Shown here one piece after another: positions 42,557 to 60,836 of a DNA stretch of 64,000 bases (its first letter is position 1; each line of letters opens with the position of its first letter). Location of the stretch: NCBI GenBank assembly GCA_029212745.1, contig JARGOL010000006.1, forward strand, positions 124,001-188,000, in the 5' to 3' direction. Both the position numbers and the translations under genes were made by a program. The notes beneath the pieces were generated by a model. That model had not been told where the DNA came from. It was given only the letters and a program-made list of their open reading frames with translations, and searched no databases. Origin of the DNA: Alcanivoracaceae bacterium. GTDB taxonomy: Bacteria > Pseudomonadota > Gammaproteobacteria > Pseudomonadales > Alcanivoracaceae.

Positions 42557-43996
42557 TTATTCCCAGGGGTACCCGGGATACTCGACGCCGGAAATCTGCT
42601 GCAGGATGCGCATGACCTGGCAGCTGTAGCCGAACTCGTTGTCGTACCAGACGTACAGCACGCAGTAGCGGCCATCCACCAGGGTCGCCTCGGCATCAAT
42701 CACGGACGCGTGGCGTGAGCCGACAAAGTCGGTGGACACGGCATCCGGCGAGCTGACGTAGTCAATCTGGCGCTGCAGGGGTGAATGCAGGGACACCCAG
42801 CGCAGGTAGTCATTCAACTCGTCCAGCGAGGTTTCCTTGCCCAGCGTCAGGTTGAGGATCGCCAGGGACACGTTCGGCGTCGGCACACGGATGGAGTTGC
42901 CGGACAGCTTGCCCGCCAGCTCCGGCAGCGCCTTGGCGGCCGCCGTGGCCGCACCGGTCTCGGTGATGACCATGTTCAGCGGTGCCGCACGCCCACGACG
43001 CGGGCCCTTGTGGAAGTTATCCAGCAGGTTCTGGTCGTTGGTGTAGGAGTGCACCGTTTCCACGTGGCCGTGCTCGATGCCGAACTTGTCGTTCAGCGCC
43101 TTCAGCGGCGGCACGATGGCGTTGGTGGTGCAGCTGGCCGCCGAGATGATCTTGTCGTCGTCACTGATCAGGTCGTTGTTGACCCCGTGAACGATGTTCT
43201 TCAGGTCACCCTTGCCCGGCGCCGTCAGGATCACCCGGTCGATGCCCGGACGGGACAGGTGCACACCCAGGCCCTCGGCATCCCGCCACTTGCCGGTGTT
43301 GTCGATGAGGATGGCGTTGTTGAGGCCATACTCGGTGTAATCCACCTCGGACGGGTCGTTGGCGTAGATCACCTTGATGAAGTTGCCATTGGCGATCAGG
43401 GCATTATCTTCCTCGTCCACGGCGATGGTGCCATGGAACGGGCCGTGAACCGAGTCGCGGCGCATCAGGCTGGCGCGCTTTTGCAGGTCGTTCTTGCCGG
43501 ATTCACGTACCACGATGGCCTTCAGGCGCAGGCCATGGCCGGAGCCGACCTTCTCGATCAGCAGGCGGGCCAGGATACGGCCGATACGACCGAAGCCGTA
43601 CAGCACCACGTCGGTGGGCTCGGGCAGGTCGATCTTGTTCTCCACCGCCGATTTCAGCTCCTCGGCGACGAACTCGGCCACGGACAGGCCGCGGTTGTCG
43701 GTCTTGAAGGCCACCGCCACCTTGCCGATGTCGATGCGGCTGGGCCCCAGGTCCAGCTTCACCACTTCCTGCAGGATCGGGAAGGTATCCACCACGGACA
43801 GCTCGGCATCCTCGATCTGCTTGACGAACCGGTGCGTCTTGAGGATCTGGATAACGGACTTGTTAACCAGGGTGCGACTGTAAACGGTAGTGGTGACGTT
43901 CTTCTCGCGATAGAGCTTGCCGATCATGGGAATCATGGCTTCAGCAATTTCTTCGCGGTTTTTCCAGCGTCCGAAGTGGTCTTCCTGCTTGTTCAC
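42557..43996 (-). CDS. gap: Glyceraldehyde-3-phosphate dehydrogenase, large form
   Basis: The enzyme oxidises glyceraldehyde-3-phosphate with NAD(P)+ or runs in reverse for gluconeogenesis. The 479-aa protein has an extra N-terminal domain of about 128 residues before the Rossmann motif GFGRIGR (134-140); the catalytic cysteine is C289 in AASCTTNAI. This long form next to nqr and mfd is also found in Pseudomonas and differs from the usual 330-aa enzyme. Coenzyme choice and direction are not shown by the sequence. Confidence 0.93.
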   Translation of the reverse strand: MNKQEDHFGRWKNREEIAEAMIPMIGKLYREKNVTTTVYSRTLVNKSVIQILKTHRFVKQIEDAELSVVDTFPILQEVVKLDLGPSRIDIGKVAVAFKTDNRGLSVAEFVAEELKSAVENKIDLPEPTDVVLYGFGRIGRILARLLIEKVGSGHGLRLKAIVVRESGKNDLQKRASLMRRDSVHGPFHGTIAVDEEDNALIANGNFIKVIYANDPSEVDYTEYGLNNAILIDNTGKWRDAEGLGVHLSRPGIDRVILTAPGKGDLKNIVHGVNNDLISDDDKIISAASCTTNAIVPPLKALNDKFGIEHGHVETVHSYTNDQNLLDNFHKGPRRGRAAPLNMVITETGAATAAAKALPELAGKLSGNSIRVPTPNVSLAILNLTLGKETSLDELNDYLRWVSLHSPLQRQIDYVSSPDAVSTDFVGSRHASVIDAEATLVDGRYCVLYVWYDNEFGYSCQVMRILQQISGVEYPGYPWE

Positions 43997-54284: not shown

Positions 54285-54917
54285 TCAGGATGCCTGCACC
54301 GACGCGCGGATACCACCGGCCAGGAAGGCGATCAGGCGCTTGTCCACATCCCCTGGCCCGAGGTCATCACCGAAGTCGGCCTTGCAGATGGCACGCAGGC
54401 TGTCCATGCCCGAGAGGGTAAAGATGGTGGAGCCGAGGGCGAAGTGCACGCGCCAGAACAGTTCCATGGGCGAGACATCCGGCACCGCCTGCTGCAGGCG
54501 CATCAGGAAGCGGGTAAAGACATCGCCGTAACGCTCGCGCAGGAACTTGCGCAGGTGGCCCTGCCCCTGGGTGTAGCCCAGGCCGGACAGGCGGAAGAAG
54601 ATGGCCACGCGGCGGGCATCACCCTGCTGGGCCGCCACCGAAGTGTGCGACACCAGCGACAGCAGGGCTTCCAGGCTGACCTCGTCATCGGCCATGTCGC
54701 GCAGCTTTTCGTCCAGGCGCACACAGAAGGCCTCCAGGAAGCGCTGGAAAACGGCCTGTATCAGCGCCTCCTTGGAGCCGAAGTGGTAATTCACCGCCGC
54801 CAGGTTGACCCCTGCCTTGCTGGTGATGGCACGCAGGCTGGTCTCGGCAAAGCCTTTCTCGGCAAACAGGGCCTCGGCGGTATCCAGGATACGGTCAACG
54901 GTGGAGCTTGGTGGCAT
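54285..54917 (-). CDS. psrA: TetR-family transcriptional regulator PsrA
   Basis: PsrA senses long-chain fatty acids and controls beta-oxidation genes and, in Pseudomonas, rpoS; it represses itself. The 210-aa protein has the PsrA-type HTH block FAETSLRAITSKAGVNLAAVNYHFGSKEALIQ and a ligand domain. I chose ATG 54917 (MPPSSTVDRIL); the open frame upstream is longer but lacks similarity. It heads psrA-ldt-nagZ-mscS-hpt-mtnP. A perfect PsrA-type operator lies in the divergent upstream region at 54975-54988. Confidence 0.93.
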   Translation of the reverse strand: MPPSSTVDRILDTAEALFAEKGFAETSLRAITSKAGVNLAAVNYHFGSKEALIQAVFQRFLEAFCVRLDEKLRDMADDEVSLEALLSLVSHTSVAAQQGDARRVAIFFRLSGLGYTQGQGHLRKFLRERYGDVFTRFLMRLQQAVPDVSPMELFWRVHFALGSTIFTLSGMDSLRAICKADFGDDLGPGDVDKRLIAFLAGGIRASVQAS

Positions 54918-54974
54918 GGCAGGTCCCCAGCTGGCGCAACAGTCGGGCGCCATGGGCACCCGGATCAGCAAACA

Positions 54975-54988
54975 CAAACAAACGTTTG
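54975..54988. promoter_or_regulatory. PsrA operator match
   Basis: CAAAC, four bases (AAAC), then GTTTG matches the published PsrA consensus (G/C)AAAC-N2-4-GTTT(G/C). It contains the palindrome CAAACGTTTG at 54979-54988. It lies between divergent psrA and the reductase gene, so it can control both. Confidence 0.8.
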
Positions 54989-55113
54989 AAACGTCTGTAT
55001 GTTGGCGCAACCGCCCGGCCCGGGCAACCCTTCGCGCCGGCATCACACACAGGGGCGCGTGAAGGGTGTACCATGCCGCTTCACGTGAATAACCGCCCTG
55101 AGGGAGTCTTTCC

Positions 55114-56343
55114 ATGTCAGACAAGCCGTTCCAGATCGTCGTTTTCGGTGCCACCAGCTTTGTGGGCCAGATCATCTGCCAGTACCTGACAGACACCTAC
55201 GGCGTGGACGGCGACGTCAAATGGGCCGCCGCCGGGCGCAACCCGGACAAGCTGGAGCAGGTAAAGGCCTCCCTGGGCAGCAAGGCCGCCGCCCTGCCCC
55301 TGCTGCAGGCAGATGCCAATGACCCGGGCCAGCTGGCCGACCTGTGCAACATGACCGATGTGGTGCTCTCCACCGTCGGCCCCTATGCCCTGTACGGCGA
55401 GCCCATGGTGAAAGCCTGCGTGGAAACCGGCACCGACTATGTGGACCTCACCGGTGAAACCCAGTGGATCCGCGCCATGCTGCTCAAGTACGAAGCCAAG
55501 GCGAAAGAATCCGGCGCCCGCATCGTGAACTGCTGCGGCTTTGACTCCATCCCTTCCGACCTTGGCGTGCACTTCCTGCAGAAGCAGGCCCAGGAGCAGT
55601 TCGGCGCGCCCTGCACGCGCGTCAAGATGCGCGTCAAAGCCGCCAAAGGCGCCATGTCTGGCGGCACCGTGGCGAGCATGCTCAACATTGCCCAGGAAGC
55701 GGCAAAGGACAAGGAACTGCGCAAGCAGCTGGCCAACCCCTACGCCCTGTGCATCGACAATGCCGTAAGCAGCGAACGCCAGCCCGATGTGAAATCCGCC
55801 ACCTTTGATGACGACTTCGGCGTTTGGCTGGCCCCGTTCGTGATGGCCGCCATCAACACCCGTGTGGTGCACCGCTCCAACGCCCTGCTCAATGGCACCT
55901 ACGGCAACAACTTCGCCTACGACGAGGCCATGATCACCGGCAAAGGCACCAAGGGCTGGCTGGCGGCCCAGAGCATCACCGCTGCCATGGGCGGCTTCCT
56001 GGTGGCGTCCGTGATCAAGCCCACCCGCTGGCTGATGGAAAAGACCTTCCTGCCCGCCCCCGGCGAAGGCCCGAGCCCGGAAGCGCAAGAGAAAGGTTTC
56101 TACGACATCCGCCTCCATGGCATCACCGACAAGGGCGATGTGATTCGCACCAAGGTCACCGGTGACCGTGATCCGGGCTATGGCTCTACTGCGAAGATGA
56201 TTTCAGAGGCGGCGCTTTGCCTGGCAACGGAAACGCCGCGAACGCTCAAGCCTGGTGGCTTCTGGACGCCGGCAACGGCGCTGGGGGATAACCTGATTGA
56301 GCGGTTGGAGGCGAAGGCTGGCGTGCATTTCAGCGGGCAGTAA
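55114..56343 (+). CDS. Saccharopine dehydrogenase-family reductase (trans-acting enoyl reductase-like)
   Basis: The 409-aa protein has an N-terminal Rossmann nucleotide site (VVFGATSFVG), the STVGPYALYGEP block, DLTGETQWIR and a CCGFDSIPSDLG motif of the saccharopine dehydrogenase-like family. Some members act as trans-acting enoyl reductases in lipid synthesis; others are of unknown function. The ATG has GAGGGAG upstream. It diverges from psrA across a PsrA operator, hinting at a lipid-linked role. Its last 80 bases recur at 57504-57583. Confidence 0.85.
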   Translation: MSDKPFQIVVFGATSFVGQIICQYLTDTYGVDGDVKWAAAGRNPDKLEQVKASLGSKAAALPLLQADANDPGQLADLCNMTDVVLSTVGPYALYGEPMVKACVETGTDYVDLTGETQWIRAMLLKYEAKAKESGARIVNCCGFDSIPSDLGVHFLQKQAQEQFGAPCTRVKMRVKAAKGAMSGGTVASMLNIAQEAAKDKELRKQLANPYALCIDNAVSSERQPDVKSATFDDDFGVWLAPFVMAAINTRVVHRSNALLNGTYGNNFAYDEAMITGKGTKGWLAAQSITAAMGGFLVASVIKPTRWLMEKTFLPAPGEGPSPEAQEKGFYDIRLHGITDKGDVIRTKVTGDRDPGYGSTAKMISEAALCLATETPRTLKPGGFWTPATALGDNLIERLEAKAGVHFSGQ

Positions 56344-56347
56344 AGCT

Positions 56348-56374
56348 GCCCATTGTCCGTCAGGCACAATGGGC
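56348..56374 (+). terminator. Hairpin after the reductase gene
   Basis: Nine-base arms GCCCATTGT and ACAATGGGC flank a 9-nt loop 4 bases after the stop. There is no T run, so it may stabilise the mRNA end rather than terminate by itself. Confidence 0.45.
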
Positions 56375-56471
56375 GGATTCAGGTCCCGGCGCTTGGCGTG
56401 ACTGGCCCCGGTTGCTCCAGTCTCGCTCCATTACGATGGTGGCTCAGAACCCGGGGCCAGAACCCACGCCC

Positions 56472-56852
56472 TTATGCGGCGCTGCTGTCATGGTTGGAAC
56501 GGTGTTTGATCAGACTCTCCGCTGGAATCGAGAACCTGTCGTGGAGCCCCTCGATCATCCGGAGTGTCAAAGGACGTTTACGGGCCAGCACCTCGTAAAC
56601 CCGGTTCTTGCGCCCGATTACCGGTACCAGATCATCAACGGTAAGACCCTGCTGCTCCATCCTGAACTTGATCGCCTCAACCGGATCAGGGAAATCGACC
56701 GGATAATGCTGCCGCTCGTAGGCCTCAACCAACGTTACCAGGACATCCAGTCGATCCCCCTCCTCTGAACCAGCCTCCGCCGACATGAGGGATTCAATCT
56801 CCTTCAGTGTCGCCTGGTAGTCGGCTTCTGTCTTAACCGGACGGATGTCCAT
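56472..56852 (-). CDS. higA: HigA-family antitoxin
   Basis: HigA binds and neutralises HigB and represses the operon. The 126-aa protein has an N-terminal antitoxin part and a C-terminal XRE-type HTH (about 60-120) with EAIKFRMEQQGLTVDDLVPVIG. I chose ATG 56852 (MDIRPVKTEADY) with GAGGTG 7 bases upstream. It lies 8 bases after the toxin gene; toxin-first order is characteristic of higBA. It converges on the reductase gene. Confidence 0.93.
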   Translation of the reverse strand: MDIRPVKTEADYQATLKEIESLMSAEAGSEEGDRLDVLVTLVEAYERQHYPVDFPDPVEAIKFRMEQQGLTVDDLVPVIGRKNRVYEVLARKRPLTLRMIEGLHDRFSIPAESLIKHRSNHDSSAA

Positions 56853-56860
56853 AAAGCACC

Positions 56861-57163
56861 TCATACTGTCTGTGCATCAATCGCATCGTATTGCTTATGC
56901 GTGCCGATGAATCGAATGTACACGACGCGATAGGGGTAATTAATCCAGACCACGAGTCTGTATTTGTTGCCGGCAATGTTGAAAACCACCCGGCCATCCT
57001 TAAGGATGCTCGCGTTCGAAAATTGCGCCTTCACCTCATTTGGACTGGCCCAATCAGCCCTCAGCGCTTCCCGGTACCAGGCCAACCCGGGGTCGACGGA
57101 GTCGGCATATTCCGGGGCACTCGCCCAGAATGCCTTTAGCGTCGACAAAGCGATAATACGCAT
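56861..57163 (-). CDS. higB: HigB-family mRNA interferase toxin
   Basis: HigB toxins cut mRNA, often at the ribosome. The 100-aa protein has the family layout: MRIIALSTLKAFW start, NASILKDGRVVFNIAGNKYRLVVWI core and C-terminal RFIGTHKQYDAID with the KQYD region. I chose ATG 57163; it has no Shine-Dalgarno, but the promoter -10 ends 6 bases upstream, so a leaderless mRNA is expected. Upstream open frame is not part of the family. Confidence 0.92.
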   Translation of the reverse strand: MRIIALSTLKAFWASAPEYADSVDPGLAWYREALRADWASPNEVKAQFSNASILKDGRVVFNIAGNKYRLVVWINYPYRVVYIRFIGTHKQYDAIDAQTV

Positions 57164-57169
57164 AACACG

Positions 57170-57198
57170 AATATAGTCCCAAATTGGGACCAGTGCAA
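57170..57198 (-). promoter_or_regulatory. higBA promoter with operator in the spacer
   Basis: Minus-strand TTGCAC and TATATT are separated by exactly 17 bases. The spacer contains the 15-base inverted repeat 57176-57190 (GTCCCAA, one base, TTGGGAC), placed where HigA binding would block RNA polymerase. HigA binding is inferred from position. Confidence 0.75.
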
Positions 57199-57394
57199 TA
57201 TCAGCTTCTTCCTCAGGAACAATGGACCGCTGGAAATAATTGCGTAAGCGCACGGATCGATAGCGAAGGCTGGCACCAGCTGACGCCTGGGTTGTGTCAC
57301 GACATCCTCCCTGATATGCCCGAACACTCTCTAGCGTACCGGATCGGAAAGGGAGGGATACCCGTGATCGCCTAGCGCGCCGTGAGAGACGGAT
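57199..57394. other. Gene-free stretch upstream of higBA
   Basis: The 463 bases between the higB start and the next gene hold the higBA promoter, tandem repeats and a gene remnant. In this sub-stretch I see no convincing coding sequence, only short open frames without ribosome sites or recognisable protein features. Confidence 0.6.
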
Positions 57395-57411
57395 TAATCA
57401 GTGGGTATCCC
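57395..57411 (+). repeat. Degenerate third copy of the tandem unit
   Basis: TAATCAGTGGGTATCCC matches the first part of the unit repeated at 57447-57505 with three mismatches (AG for GA, A for G). Confidence 0.45.
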
Positions 57412-57446
57412 TGTCTATTCTTGCACTCTGCGCCCACGACACTCCG

Positions 57447-57505
57447 CTAATCGATGGGTGTCCCAGCTTTTGGGTCCCTAATCGATGGGTGTCCCAGCTT
57501 TTGGG
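57447..57505 (+). repeat. Two tandem 31-base repeats
   Basis: The unit starting CTAATCGATGGGTGTCCCAG runs 57447-57477 and again from 57478; 28 bases to 57505 are identical. Each copy contains GGGTGTCCC and ends in TTTTGGG. The second copy abuts the gene remnant at 57504-57583. Confidence 0.9.
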
Positions 57506-57583
57506 ACGCCGGCCACGGCGCTGGGGGATAACCTGATCACGCGGCTGGAGGCGAAGGCTGGGGTGCATTTTAGCGGGCAATAA
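57504..57583 (+). pseudogene. Remnant 3' end of a second saccharopine-dehydrogenase-like gene
   Basis: These 80 bases align without gaps to 56264-56343, the end of the intact reductase gene, with 8 mismatches. Read in the same frame they encode the last 26 residues and the TAA stop; six of the seven changed codons are synonymous and one changes Glu to Thr. This pattern is expected from an old functional paralogue that was later lost except for its tail, not from a fresh duplication. Confidence 0.85.
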
Positions 57584-57626
57584 TCACCTGCCTCTTTCAT
57601 GGTAAGAAACCGGCGCCAATGCTAAC

Positions 57627-58235
57627 TCAGGCATTGCTTTCATGCCGCTCTGCAGGGTTGGCATTGGCACCCATTTTCTGAACAAGCCGAACAACCGACT
57701 GCACCTTACTCGCGTTCATAGGGCAGATAATCAGCATTCCGTTTGGCCCAATCTCACCGCTGCATTGACTACCATGAAGCTGACCCAGGACTTCTCTGAC
57801 AAACTTCCTCACGCCATCCGCACGACCAGAAGAAGAACGCCAGCCACTCATTTCAGGTATCTCGCGCGTAACAGGCTTTCCGTACCCAACATCAAAATAT
57901 CGAGAAACTTCAGATGTAAGACAGCAGACAGACTGGGCGTTACGGATTAACGGAGAGAACACAAAAACCATCTCTTTTTCGTAACCAGGAACCCCCGTCA
58001 CAAAACCTGCAACCCCCGCGCATAGACCTTGAGAGCCGGGGATTCGAAAGCACTTCGATTCATGTATTGTAATCAAAAGCGATAAATCAAACGATGAAGA
58101 TTCAGGGAGGCGATCAGCTCTTTCAGCTTCCAAACCAGAAAAAACTTCATCTATGCTGCTTCTTCTCACTCTCCGGTAGACCAAGAAACCGACAGCACAA
58201 AATATCACCAATGCTAGAAAAATTGCGTCATTCAT
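57627..58235 (-). CDS. Orphan membrane-anchored protein 1
   Basis: I do not recognise this 202-aa protein. Residues about 4-21 form one transmembrane helix followed by a basic stop-transfer stretch (RRVRRSS), so the remaining roughly 175 residues are probably cytoplasmic. It has several cysteines, including SVCCLTSE and the segment GSQCSGEIG. Base composition is visibly more AT-rich than the flanking genes, a sign of recent acquisition. It is 51 bases after a second orphan of the same design on the same strand. Confidence 0.7.
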   Translation of the reverse strand: MNDAIFLALVIFCAVGFLVYRRVRRSSIDEVFSGLEAERADRLPESSSFDLSLLITIHESKCFRIPGSQGLCAGVAGFVTGVPGYEKEMVFVFSPLIRNAQSVCCLTSEVSRYFDVGYGKPVTREIPEMSGWRSSSGRADGVRKFVREVLGQLHGSQCSGEIGPNGMLIICPMNASKVQSVVRLVQKMGANANPAERHESNA

Positions 58236-58286
58236 TGGTCACACCTGCTTTCGTTGCGCTCAATCTCCAGGATGATTCCAGGCAGA

Positions 58287-58871
58287 CTAGCTCACCTGTG
58301 GCCGCTGTATCGTCTGAGCGAGGGCTCCGCTCCGCCGATACTCCCTTACTATCTCTATGGCCTGCTCAACATCCTCAGATCGCCAACCACAGGAAACAAG
58401 CAGCAGCGACTCAACAATTTCAATAGAGACCTTTTTTCGCCACCTTTCGACGAAAGCCAGAAAGGCTTCGGCGTCCGACGTATCTTCAAATACAACGATG
58501 TTGAATTGTGTATCATTTAGCAGCGTGCCGGCCGCCTCGTAACCCTTTCCATATACTCTTCTAGCCTCATCGGTCAACGCCATTACCTGAGATGGCACAG
58601 GTAAAATCTTGCCGACTACTATATGCCCAGGAAACGAAAACGCGGCTCGACCAGAATCAAAACCGCAGCGCGACACATAGATATCATCTTCTGTCTTTAG
58701 CCAATGGGCTCTTACTTGAACCTGTTTCAATAGCTCTGACTTATCAACATCCAGTTCCAACTGAGGACATGTTCTCAGCCCTAAAGAAATCGCTGCAGCC
58801 TTAAATTCTTGCCGCCAGAGGAAATATAAAATAGGCAAAGCGAAGAGTAGGATAATCAAAACAGCATTCAT
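58287..58871 (-). CDS. Orphan membrane-anchored protein 2
   Basis: This 194-aa protein is also unrecognised. One N-terminal helix (about 3-19) is followed by a soluble part with NIVVFEDTSDAEAFL and a C-terminal helical region. Its size, single anchor and orientation match the neighbouring orphan, suggesting a functional pair or distant paralogues. The DNA is AT-richer than the core genome. 104 bases without features separate it from the methyltransferase gene upstream. Confidence 0.7.
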   Translation of the reverse strand: MNAVLIILLFALPILYFLWRQEFKAAAISLGLRTCPQLELDVDKSELLKQVQVRAHWLKTEDDIYVSRCGFDSGRAAFSFPGHIVVGKILPVPSQVMALTDEARRVYGKGYEAAGTLLNDTQFNIVVFEDTSDAEAFLAFVERWRKKVSIEIVESLLLVSCGWRSEDVEQAIEIVREYRRSGALAQTIQRPQVS

Positions 58872-58975
58872 TTCGCAGAGTCCTCATTCATTATCCAAAT
58901 AGAGCAAATGAAAATGAGTTAGGCAGCAATAAATTCAGCAAATGTGCCAAATGGGGTCAGACCTCCCATTTCCCT

Positions 58976-59425
58976 CTAAACCAACCACCGCGGCACCCGC
59001 TCACAAAACACCGACCACTGCTCGGCAAACTTCTCCGCCATGGCCCGCTCTTCCGCCGGAATCTGCAACGCATTCATATAGATCACGAACATCGGCCAGG
59101 CGATCAACAACCAAAGGGAAGAAACAGCAAACGCGCCGGCGATCAGCCAGAAGCAGAAGCCGACATACATGGGGTTGCGGGAGATGCGGTACAGGCCGTC
59201 GGTGACCAGGGCTTCGGTCTTTTCGGGATTACGGGGGTCGACGGTGGTGCCGGCGCGCCTGAATGATATGGCGGCGGGCAGAACGAAGATGGCTCCGACG
59301 AGACCGAAGAACGTGACCGCACCCCAGCGGGCTGCATCGGGCATAGCTGTTGTTGGCAGCACGTGTGCCAGCGGCACCATGGCCAGCAGCATCAGTGCGA
59401 CGACGAGCAGTGGTGGTATGCGCAT
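58976..59425 (-). CDS. Isoprenylcysteine carboxyl methyltransferase-family membrane protein
   Basis: The 149-aa protein has about four hydrophobic helices and the ICMT/PEMT signature block DGLYRISRNPMYVGF, with the C-terminal EERAMAEKF segment. Bacterial members methylate unknown, probably lipid or small-molecule, targets with S-adenosylmethionine. Function here is not known. It stands alone on the minus strand between the orphan pair and a REP-like element. Confidence 0.88.
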   Translation of the reverse strand: MRIPPLLVVALMLLAMVPLAHVLPTTAMPDAARWGAVTFFGLVGAIFVLPAAISFRRAGTTVDPRNPEKTEALVTDGLYRISRNPMYVGFCFWLIAGAFAVSSLWLLIAWPMFVIYMNALQIPAEERAMAEKFAEQWSVFCERVPRWLV

Positions 59426-59502
59426 GGATGTCCCCTTCCCCTGTGTTTAATCATGCAGGGTGGGGTTGGGGATTTCCAGAGGGTGTTGGGAGTAAGGCTG
59501 TG

Positions 59503-59537
59503 CCCTCACCCCAACCCCTCTCCCGGAGGGAGAGGGG
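59503..59537. repeat. Single REP-like element
   Basis: CCCTCACCCCAA is followed by a hairpin with 10-base arms (CCCCTCTCCC at 59515-59524 and its complement at 59528-59537, GGA loop). It is the same family as the pair at 50178-50328. Confidence 0.8.
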
Positions 59538-59549
59538 CTTTGTCGGGGC

Positions 59550-60836
59550 CTAGAAGTAGTAGACGACTTCCAGTTGGATGTTGTCTTCCTGGCCGTAGAT
59601 GGACAGCGGGGTTTCCGGCGGGATTTCCTGCAGGGAGGCGCCAACGATCTGTTCCACCGTGGGTGGCTCGCCGGTGTTGCTGTAGATGCGGCTCTCCAGG
59701 CTCACCTTGAAGCGGTCACCAATGCGACGGCTGGTTTCCAGGCTCCAGGCCCGCTCTTCGGTTTCCGGGTCCCACACCACACCCCACAGCACTTCCGTGG
59801 ACGCGATGTCATTGAAGGTCAGGCGGTTCCCCAGCAGCACATCATGCTCGAACGGCGAGGCCAGCAGCTCATCGCGGTCTTCCCACAGGTATTCGACAAT
59901 CCAGCCCAGGTCCAGGTCACTTTCGAAGATGCCCACCTGGGTGTATTCCAGGCCACCATCAAGGGCGGTGAAACGATCGCCCTGCCCGCTGCGACTGATC
60001 ACTTCCAGTTTCCACAACCAGCCGCCACTGACGTACTGCGCCTCAAGGCCACTCTGGTCGATCACCTCGTAGACCGGAATGAAACGCGGCTTGTAGCCGG
60101 CAGGCAGCTGGCCGGTCACGGCGAAGGCACCCAGCTGCGCCTGGCTGAGCTGGAAGGTGTTCAGCGCCAGCAGCGGCTCGCGGGTGGTGCCCGAGAAATG
60201 GCTCAGCCCGAACTGCCAGTCCCCCATCCAGAACTGCCAGCGAATGGCGGCGTCCACCCGTTTCTGCTCGGCACCGGATTCATAGATCGGGTCGTCCGTG
60301 TCCACCGGCACCGCCAGTGACGGGCGGCCGTCTTCGCCGGGGAAAGTACGCTCACGGAAACCGGGCAGGATGAACACATCAAGAATGCCCCAGTCACGCA
60401 CGGTGGAGACATTGATCATCGGCTGGCCGAGTTTCTCTTCCTGGTCGATCTGCTCCACCAGGTCGGTCTGGTTGATGATATCCACCAGGTGACGCCCTTC
60501 GGTCACGCCCCAGAACACCTTGGAGACGCCGACGCGGGATTCCCAGCCGTCAGCCACATGGATCCAGCTCAGCTCACGGATATCCGCATGGGTGCGGTTC
60601 TCGTCATGCTCGTCCTGGCGGGCAAAGGGAATGAACACGAACTGGTCGTCGCGGTCGTTCCACTCATGGAACAGCTCCGCCTTGGCATACACCGAGCCGT
60701 TGTGCCAGTAGCCGGCGGTGCCGGGGCCGTCGGTAAAGTAACGCCCTTCCACGCCGGTCTCGCCGCGGAATTCCCAGGCACTGGCCGTGCTCGCCAGGGC
60801 GATGCCCGTGAGAGCCAGTAAAAAGCGGTGGGTCAT
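59550..60836 (-). CDS. Putative outer-membrane beta-barrel protein
   Basis: The 428-aa protein has a signal peptide (cleavage after about residue 20, ASA-WEF), many alternating aromatic strands and a C-terminal EVVYYF ending with Phe, the outer-membrane sorting signal. I cannot assign a precise family or substrate. It follows the LolA-like gene on the same strand, separated by a terminator, so the two are probably related in function. Confidence 0.78.
   Translation of the reverse strand: MTHRFLLALTGIALASTASAWEFRGETGVEGRYFTDGPGTAGYWHNGSVYAKAELFHEWNDRDDQFVFIPFARQDEHDENRTHADIRELSWIHVADGWESRVGVSKVFWGVTEGRHLVDIINQTDLVEQIDQEEKLGQPMINVSTVRDWGILDVFILPGFRERTFPGEDGRPSLAVPVDTDDPIYESGAEQKRVDAAIRWQFWMGDWQFGLSHFSGTTREPLLALNTFQLSQAQLGAFAVTGQLPAGYKPRFIPVYEVIDQSGLEAQYVSGGWLWKLEVISRSGQGDRFTALDGGLEYTQVGIFESDLDLGWIVEYLWEDRDELLASPFEHDVLLGNRLTFNDIASTEVLWGVVWDPETEERAWSLETSRRIGDRFKVSLESRIYSNTGEPPTVEQIVGASLQEIPPETPLSIYGQEDNIQLEVVYYF

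Follow-up and report, generated by a model that had tools for sequence, protein, structure and literature searches.

A diverged duplicate of a reductase gene end lies across a higBA toxin–antitoxin module in an Alcanivoracaceae genome

Results and Discussion

In the 64,000-nucleotide stretch of an Alcanivoracaceae genome that was analysed here (the window), the last 80 bp of an intact reductase gene occur a second time, as a diverged in-frame copy on the far side of a higBA toxin–antitoxin (TA) module. One reductase gene and one insertion-duplication may explain this arrangement, and we tentatively favour this over a lost tandem paralogue. The picture resembles the ordinary scar of foreign DNA that entered a gene end, rather than proving that a twin gene was lost.

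The end of the reductase gene is duplicated

The intact gene (55114–56343, plus strand) encodes a saccharopine-dehydrogenase-like protein of 409 aa (PF03435, E 5.8e-15), whose closest relative, in genome G012, is 73% identical. As the original prediction had it, the last 80 bp of this gene (tail A, 56264–56343, plus strand) are matched again at 57504–57583 on the same strand (tail B). The repeat search and codon comparison define a direct repeat of 80 nt with 8 mismatches (90% identity) and no gaps. The predicted coding character of this divergence was also confirmed, as six of the seven changed codons are synonymous and the stop codon TAA is retained. The codon pairs in tails A and B are GCA/GCC, ATT/ATC, GAG/ACG (Glu to Thr), TTG/CTG, GGC/GGG, TTC/TTT and CAG/CAA. 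When 8 random substitutions were placed over 75 coding bases in 100,000 draws, at most one nonsynonymous codon was obtained in 0.068% of the draws (P 0.00068), the mean being 5.4. A probability of about 0.0007 for so few amino-acid changes suggests that the tails diverged mainly while both were translated. This supports the view that tail B is the remnant of a second, diverged reductase sequence that was once under protein-level selection. The mismatches lie at sites 11, 35, 36, 37, 42, 59, 68 and 77 of the 80, with one in the left 34 positions and seven in the right 46, a weak imbalance (one-sided P 0.07, two-sided 0.13). The homology between the tails is limited by the stop codon on the right and by a hairpin repeat on the left, and no similarity was visible by eye 3' of the stop codon.

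In its own genome, strong matches to the tail are found at two sites only, and the next match is 21 bases long (E 0.01). A search of 46 genomes of the family (its own included, none of them a second genome of the genus) with a 174-bp query from the gene end revealed three weaker matches besides tails A and B, all of which lie inside reductase genes by their coordinates (75% over 156 query bases in G012, 69% in G040 and 74% over 62 bases in G031). This rules out the tail as a dispersed repeat, the contrary outcome that had been raised together with the original prediction: no such element was found in its own genome or in the 45 other genomes of the family.

Other reductase loci hold a single copy

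Tail B had originally been read as the end of a second, functional reductase copy in tandem, possibly replaced by higBA. According to this explanation, the reductase gene was duplicated and the two copies diverged while both still functioned; later, DNA carrying higBA and short repeats took the place of the second copy except for its final 80 bp. The coding-type divergence and the retained stop codon fit this history, and tail B is as low in third-position C as tail A (see below), as expected of a close sibling. However, it requires two events, a duplication and a replacement, and nothing is visibly common to the 3' flanks of both gene ends. We examined 78 reductase loci, 77 without the window's own, three pairs of which share identical 200-mers, with two genomes or sets of near-identical strains sampled at least twice. 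Their flanks of 1.5 kb or up to 5 kb, shorter at contig ends, contained a second reductase match or tail at 0/77 of the other loci. Reductase matches at most 5 kb apart were likewise absent from 93 other genomes in the match table as read, in which some matches lie at contig ends, and the repeat search between 56344 and 57503 revealed no further pieces of a second reductase gene, neither a 5' remnant nor any other. The original prediction is thus upheld for a diverged second sequence under protein-level selection and not for its position in tandem, and the replacement of a paralogue by higBA is unsupported. The sampled loci do not point to a tandem pair, and an unsampled lineage may have one; overall, we consider a tandem paralogue rather unlikely. 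Since a second copy or tail is missing at all 77 loci, the site does not count as a known hotspot of insertion.

A shift in codon usage is shared by both tails

The 3' part of the reductase gene (56167–56343, plus strand) is set off by a sharp drop in third-position C, from 0.56 to 0.17 at 56167 in a change-point test, which was matched by 0/2000 permutations. In the convergent methyltransferase gene, third-position C falls from 0.49 to 0.06 at 59080 (0/2000 permutations). The two convergent genes that flank the block thus both lose third-position C abruptly at their 3' ends (56167–56343 in the reductase gene, 58976–59080 in the methyltransferase gene). Values of at most 0.175 over the last 54 codons were found for 3/61 ORFs, all three within the reductase-to-methyltransferase block, in an ORF set that was compiled mechanically and includes some non-genes. 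Tail B has a third-position C of 0.16, as low as tail A. As this usage is common to both tails, composition cannot tell which of them is native, and we dropped the change at 56167 as a mark of insertion. The shift in C is probably older than the duplication.

The same change at 56167 could mark the recombination point of an allelic exchange. In that case, DNA of a sister species, consisting of a reductase allele followed by higBA, would have recombined homologously upstream and joined illegitimately within the native gene at 57504, using a GGA microhomology at the hairpin repeat and leaving the native tail behind. The 10% divergence between the tails fits an allele from a sister species, and the junction does lie at the hairpin repeat. 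However, tail B is low in C like tail A and unlike the gene body, which indicates that the change at 56167 probably predates the event. Moreover, the residue identity of the 3' part to 73 orthologues is normal, with a mean of 0.613 versus 0.590 for the body. We therefore regard such an exchange as unlikely.

An ordinary higBA module lies between the tails

The approximately 1.2 kb between the gene ends contain higBA and short repeats, as originally described. From left to right, the interval consists of a hairpin after the stop codon, higA and higB on the minus strand, some 300 bp of unassigned DNA and, in contact with tail B, a cluster of short repeats. The toxin gene higB (56861–57163, minus strand, 100 aa) overlaps the antitoxin gene higA (56472–56864, minus strand, 130 aa) by 4 bp. 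HigB matches PF09907 (E 1.2e-30, in a scan that used a longer ORF of 130 aa) and solved HigB chains (E 1.3e-6), and has no match in NCBIfam at a threshold of 0.01. The higA product has no matches in Pfam or NCBIfam; we named it HigA because residues 57–115 match solved HigA chains (E 1.7e-5 and 2e-5) and because of its position and its relatives. Of the PADLOC models, PD-Lambda-2_A matches higB along its length, and the match of PD-Lambda-2_B to higA is confined to model positions 1–125 of 402. In this family, HigB proteins are mRNA-cleaving toxins and HigA proteins are repressors and antitoxins. The order of the genes, toxin and then antitoxin, is the same at 29 other HigBA loci. An operator-like palindrome core, TCCCAAATTGGGA (57177–57189), is found upstream of higB, and its pattern of TCCCA, three bases and TGGGA occurs in this position in the window and at 31/41 other HigBA loci. 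Going by its family, the higBA of the window should work as an ordinary toxin–antitoxin pair.

The whole window contains two TCCCA/TGGGA palindromes with at most eight bases between the arms, namely the operator-like one and a second at 57492–57506. The latter is formed at the junction of the repeat and tail B and has five bases between the arms rather than the three at higB, and we take it as a curiosity.

The block that the module has in common with other HigBA loci is 56473–57200 at its widest and includes higA. As this block ends at 57200, the DNA from 57201 to 57503 comes from elsewhere or is specific to this locus. Relatives of the module were matched in 99 plasmid records and at 12 loci on viral contigs. 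Plasmids yielded no match for 57200–57510 and phages none for 57200–57640, and the viral contigs contained no relative of the reductase gene, of the tail pattern or of the two unmatched proteins encoded downstream.

Direct repeats also surround some other HigBA modules. A direct repeat that spans the module (E at most 1e-9) was found at 6/29 other HigBA loci, drawn from the best 30 of 53 matches with the window's own among the 30, versus 1/100 control loci (Fisher P 0.0005), which were other genes with similar but not identical flank lengths. The repeat looks like a higA remnant in G123, a family in a four-copy array in G261 and a short palindromic repeat in G339; the other three are in G244, G161 and G367. 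None of the six was shown to be the end of a host gene, and they thus support mobility in general and not a mechanism that involves gene ends. Duplication of a host gene end as a habit of HigBA modules is therefore unsupported, with the remnant of a second higA in G123 as the nearest parallel. There, higBA follows a copy that is 94–96% identical to most of the module's higA and to its 3' flank (300 and 54 bp; L240:4100–5776), which by our reading may be the remnant of a tandem TA pair. The four-copy family of 93-nt repeats in G261 is presumably attC-like. An integron cassette origin was rejected for the window's module, as the repeat search shows no flanking repeat comparable to that in G261.

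Hairpin repeats mark the junction with tail B

A terminator-like hairpin follows directly after the reductase stop codon (56346–56378), and the DNA fold of 56340–56475 contains two hairpins, with a z of −3.74 for the whole stretch. Further to the right, the inverted pair GGGATACCC / GGGTATCCC forms a hairpin at 57353–57411 (DNA fold of 57320–57420, z −2.35) that holds a repeat motif at 57402. Two copies of TGGGTGTCCC follow on the plus strand (57447–57505). They belong to a perfect repeat of 28 bp, with copies at 57447–57474 and 57478–57505 (spacing 31), the second of which abuts the left edge of tail B. The sequence TGGGTRTCCC is common to these repeats and to the third copy at 57402, and this 10-base core has one further occurrence in the window, at 42790. 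With at most one mismatch, the 16-base repeat pattern has three matches in its own genome, all at this locus. It occurs without mismatch in none of the other genomes searched, and with at most one mismatch in 57/94 genomes (120 matches versus 35 for the reversed control, by hand count). As the repeats of the relatives are all at least one base off the 16-base pattern, kinship with them rests mainly on the 10-base core. No tRNA or known RNA family was found at the junction, and an 18-base piece of the junction repeat had no match in viral contigs. G013 has an exact 18-mer of the repeat as well, within sequence read as coding, and this match was taken as chance.

In relatives, similar repeats are often found beside transposase genes. 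An ORF related to REP-associated tyrosine transposases is present at 11/20 loci with the exact core (7/14 and 4/6), versus 0/248 other loci (1.43 Mb). The 20 loci, two of them near-identical, are those with the exact core among 26 motif loci, of which 20 were picked automatically and six by hand, mostly for their clusters of motifs. Transposase-related genes share loci L270, L271, L272 and L273 with TGGGTGTCCC repeats, and the three full-length ones scanned do not reach the curated cut-offs of either Pfam or NCBIfam. Their products match NF047646 with E 2.6e-10, 1.2e-9 and 1.5e-11, under its curated cut-off, and Y1_Tnp with E 0.0025–0.0077. In the window's own genome, Y1_Tnp had no match at E 0.001; as this limit is stricter than the scores of the relatives' transposases, the negative result proves nothing.

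These repeats raise the question of whether tail B was captured through them. A REP-associated tyrosine transposase acting at TGGGTRTCCC hairpins would have moved or deleted DNA, leaving a gene-end fragment at the edge of the repeat cluster. Tail B does begin on its left where the second repeat ends, as this explanation would have it, and the transposase genes at 11 of the 20 motif loci and none of the 248 others are in line with it. However, the three occurrences of the 16-base pattern in its own genome are all at this locus, and no transposase was recognised in that genome by a search too strict to exclude one. The mismatches in the relatives' repeats, which reduce the kinship mainly to the 10-base core, also argue against repeat-mediated capture, and we consider it improbable.

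The locus is a variable site

Among 20 relatives in which TetR neighbourhoods were compared, eight have TetR followed by the relative of the window's 59550 gene, with 148–389 bp between match ends, and then by the relative of the 60913 gene. Genes for an LD-transpeptidase and NagZ are also present in five of these eight. The other 12/20 relatives have NagZ, LD-transpeptidase and TetR, and relatives of the 59550 and 60913 genes are not shown there. In the window, TetR and the 59550 gene are 4.6 kb apart, separated by the reductase gene, higBA, tail B, genes for two proteins without a Pfam match and the methyltransferase gene. As the outer neighbours occur together without this block in eight relatives, the block was acquired or is lineage-specific. 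The whole reductase-to-methyltransferase block (54917–59550) is thus a variable site, absent between TetR and the 59550 gene in these eight relatives.

The two genes without a Pfam match (57627–58235 and 58287–58871) are low in G+C, and their products have a hydrophobic N-terminus as read. The product of the first has one other match, a weak one (E 0.009), among 390 genomes of the order, its own included. PADLOC had no match for the two proteins encoded at 57627–58871. Near the right edge of the block, a short repeat at 59502–59540 recurs on a different contig of its own genome (L008), in direct and inverted orientation, with 92% identity over 39 bp.

A single insertion may have duplicated the gene end

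An insertion-duplication would account for these features as follows. Incoming foreign DNA would have carried higBA and a slightly different reductase end, comprising the final 80 bp or a little more. By a crossover in the gene end common to both, this DNA would have joined the chromosome, and the chromosomal reductase gene would have kept its body and adopted the incoming tail as tail A. As the newcomer's tail was taken over, the reductase gene would have stayed intact. The former native tail would have ended up beyond the insert and may survive there as tail B. An integrase could have been responsible, as for the prophage e14 at icd, or else a circle could have recombined by homology alone. 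We infer the insertion, its direction and its agent; what is observed is the duplication with its coding-type divergence, the intact gene, the TA module and the junction repeat.

Several observations argue for an insertion-duplication. An intact gene faces its own diverged in-frame end across an insert, with mostly synonymous divergence, and the homology is bounded by the stop codon on the right and by a repeat boundary on the left. The insert carries cargo of a mobile type, with relatives on plasmids and viral contigs. The concentration of mismatches to the right of position 34 is weakly in favour as well, as the left side of the repeat, with its single mismatch, would be the putative crossover core. 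Against it, e14 is far larger than the 1.24-kb insert, and a duplicated tail is found at none of the 77 other reductase loci. Apart from higB and higA, the ORFs of at least 50 aa within 56344–57503 do not exceed 118 aa. No recombinase was found among the eight ORFs scanned besides higB and higA, one of which had a weak thioesterase-like match below the cut-off. With no recombinase recognised in the insert and no sister strain among the genomes covered, the event is unproven. For the lack of a recombinase, the locus was also not filed as an integrative element.

The unit in its present form spans 1.24 kb, and its boundary is a hairpin repeat of a putatively transposase-associated type. A bolder idea is that it represents a minimal non-autonomous mobile TA cassette, a circle made up solely of higBA, hairpin repeats and an extra gene end. 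Such a cassette would enter the 3' end of a gene, mend the gene with its own tail and exit by recombination of the ends, with the TA pair punishing its loss. We think this very improbable.

The locus shows that a diverged gene-end fragment can pass for a lost tandem paralogue, although a single insertion at the gene end yields the same picture. As a small and testable case, it also illustrates how a TA pair may settle in a chromosome while leaving the gene unbroken, and it links a type of hairpin repeat of this bacterial family to REP-associated tyrosine transposases. Otherwise, it is an ordinary scar of genome rearrangement.

Comparison with known systems

The module resembles type II HigBA modules (PF09907; 5ycl, 5ifg) in that the toxin gene comes first, the antitoxin gene overlaps it, a palindrome lies upstream and both partners are matched, and it shows nothing unusual among them. 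With REP sequences and their associated tyrosine transposases, the locus has in common its short hairpin repeats in direct and inverted orientation, whose motif, mainly by its 10-base core, lies beside such transposase genes in relatives. REP sequences with these transposases (Nunvar et al. 2010, PMC2817692) usually number more than 100 copies per genome. The locus differs in its copy number, with three copies in its own genome, where no cognate transposase was recognised.

The closest comparison for the favoured insertion-duplication is the cryptic prophage e14 in icd of E. coli K-12, with its icdC remnant. As described in PMC11148124, e14 is inserted in the reading frame, and a duplicated segment of 165 bp lies beyond the insert, with an intact frame upstream. 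This segment is described there as having 12 nucleotide exchanges and two conservative residue changes. A second source states that the prophage provides the 3' end of icd (PMC6379469). The two cases differ in that e14 is a prophage, whereas the window's insert is 1.24 kb with only higBA, with no recombinase found and no empty site observed. The likeness is that an intact gene adjoins the insert and its in-frame end is duplicated across it. Residue changes are few in both, with 12/165 nt and two residues in e14/icd and 8/80 nt and one residue in the window.
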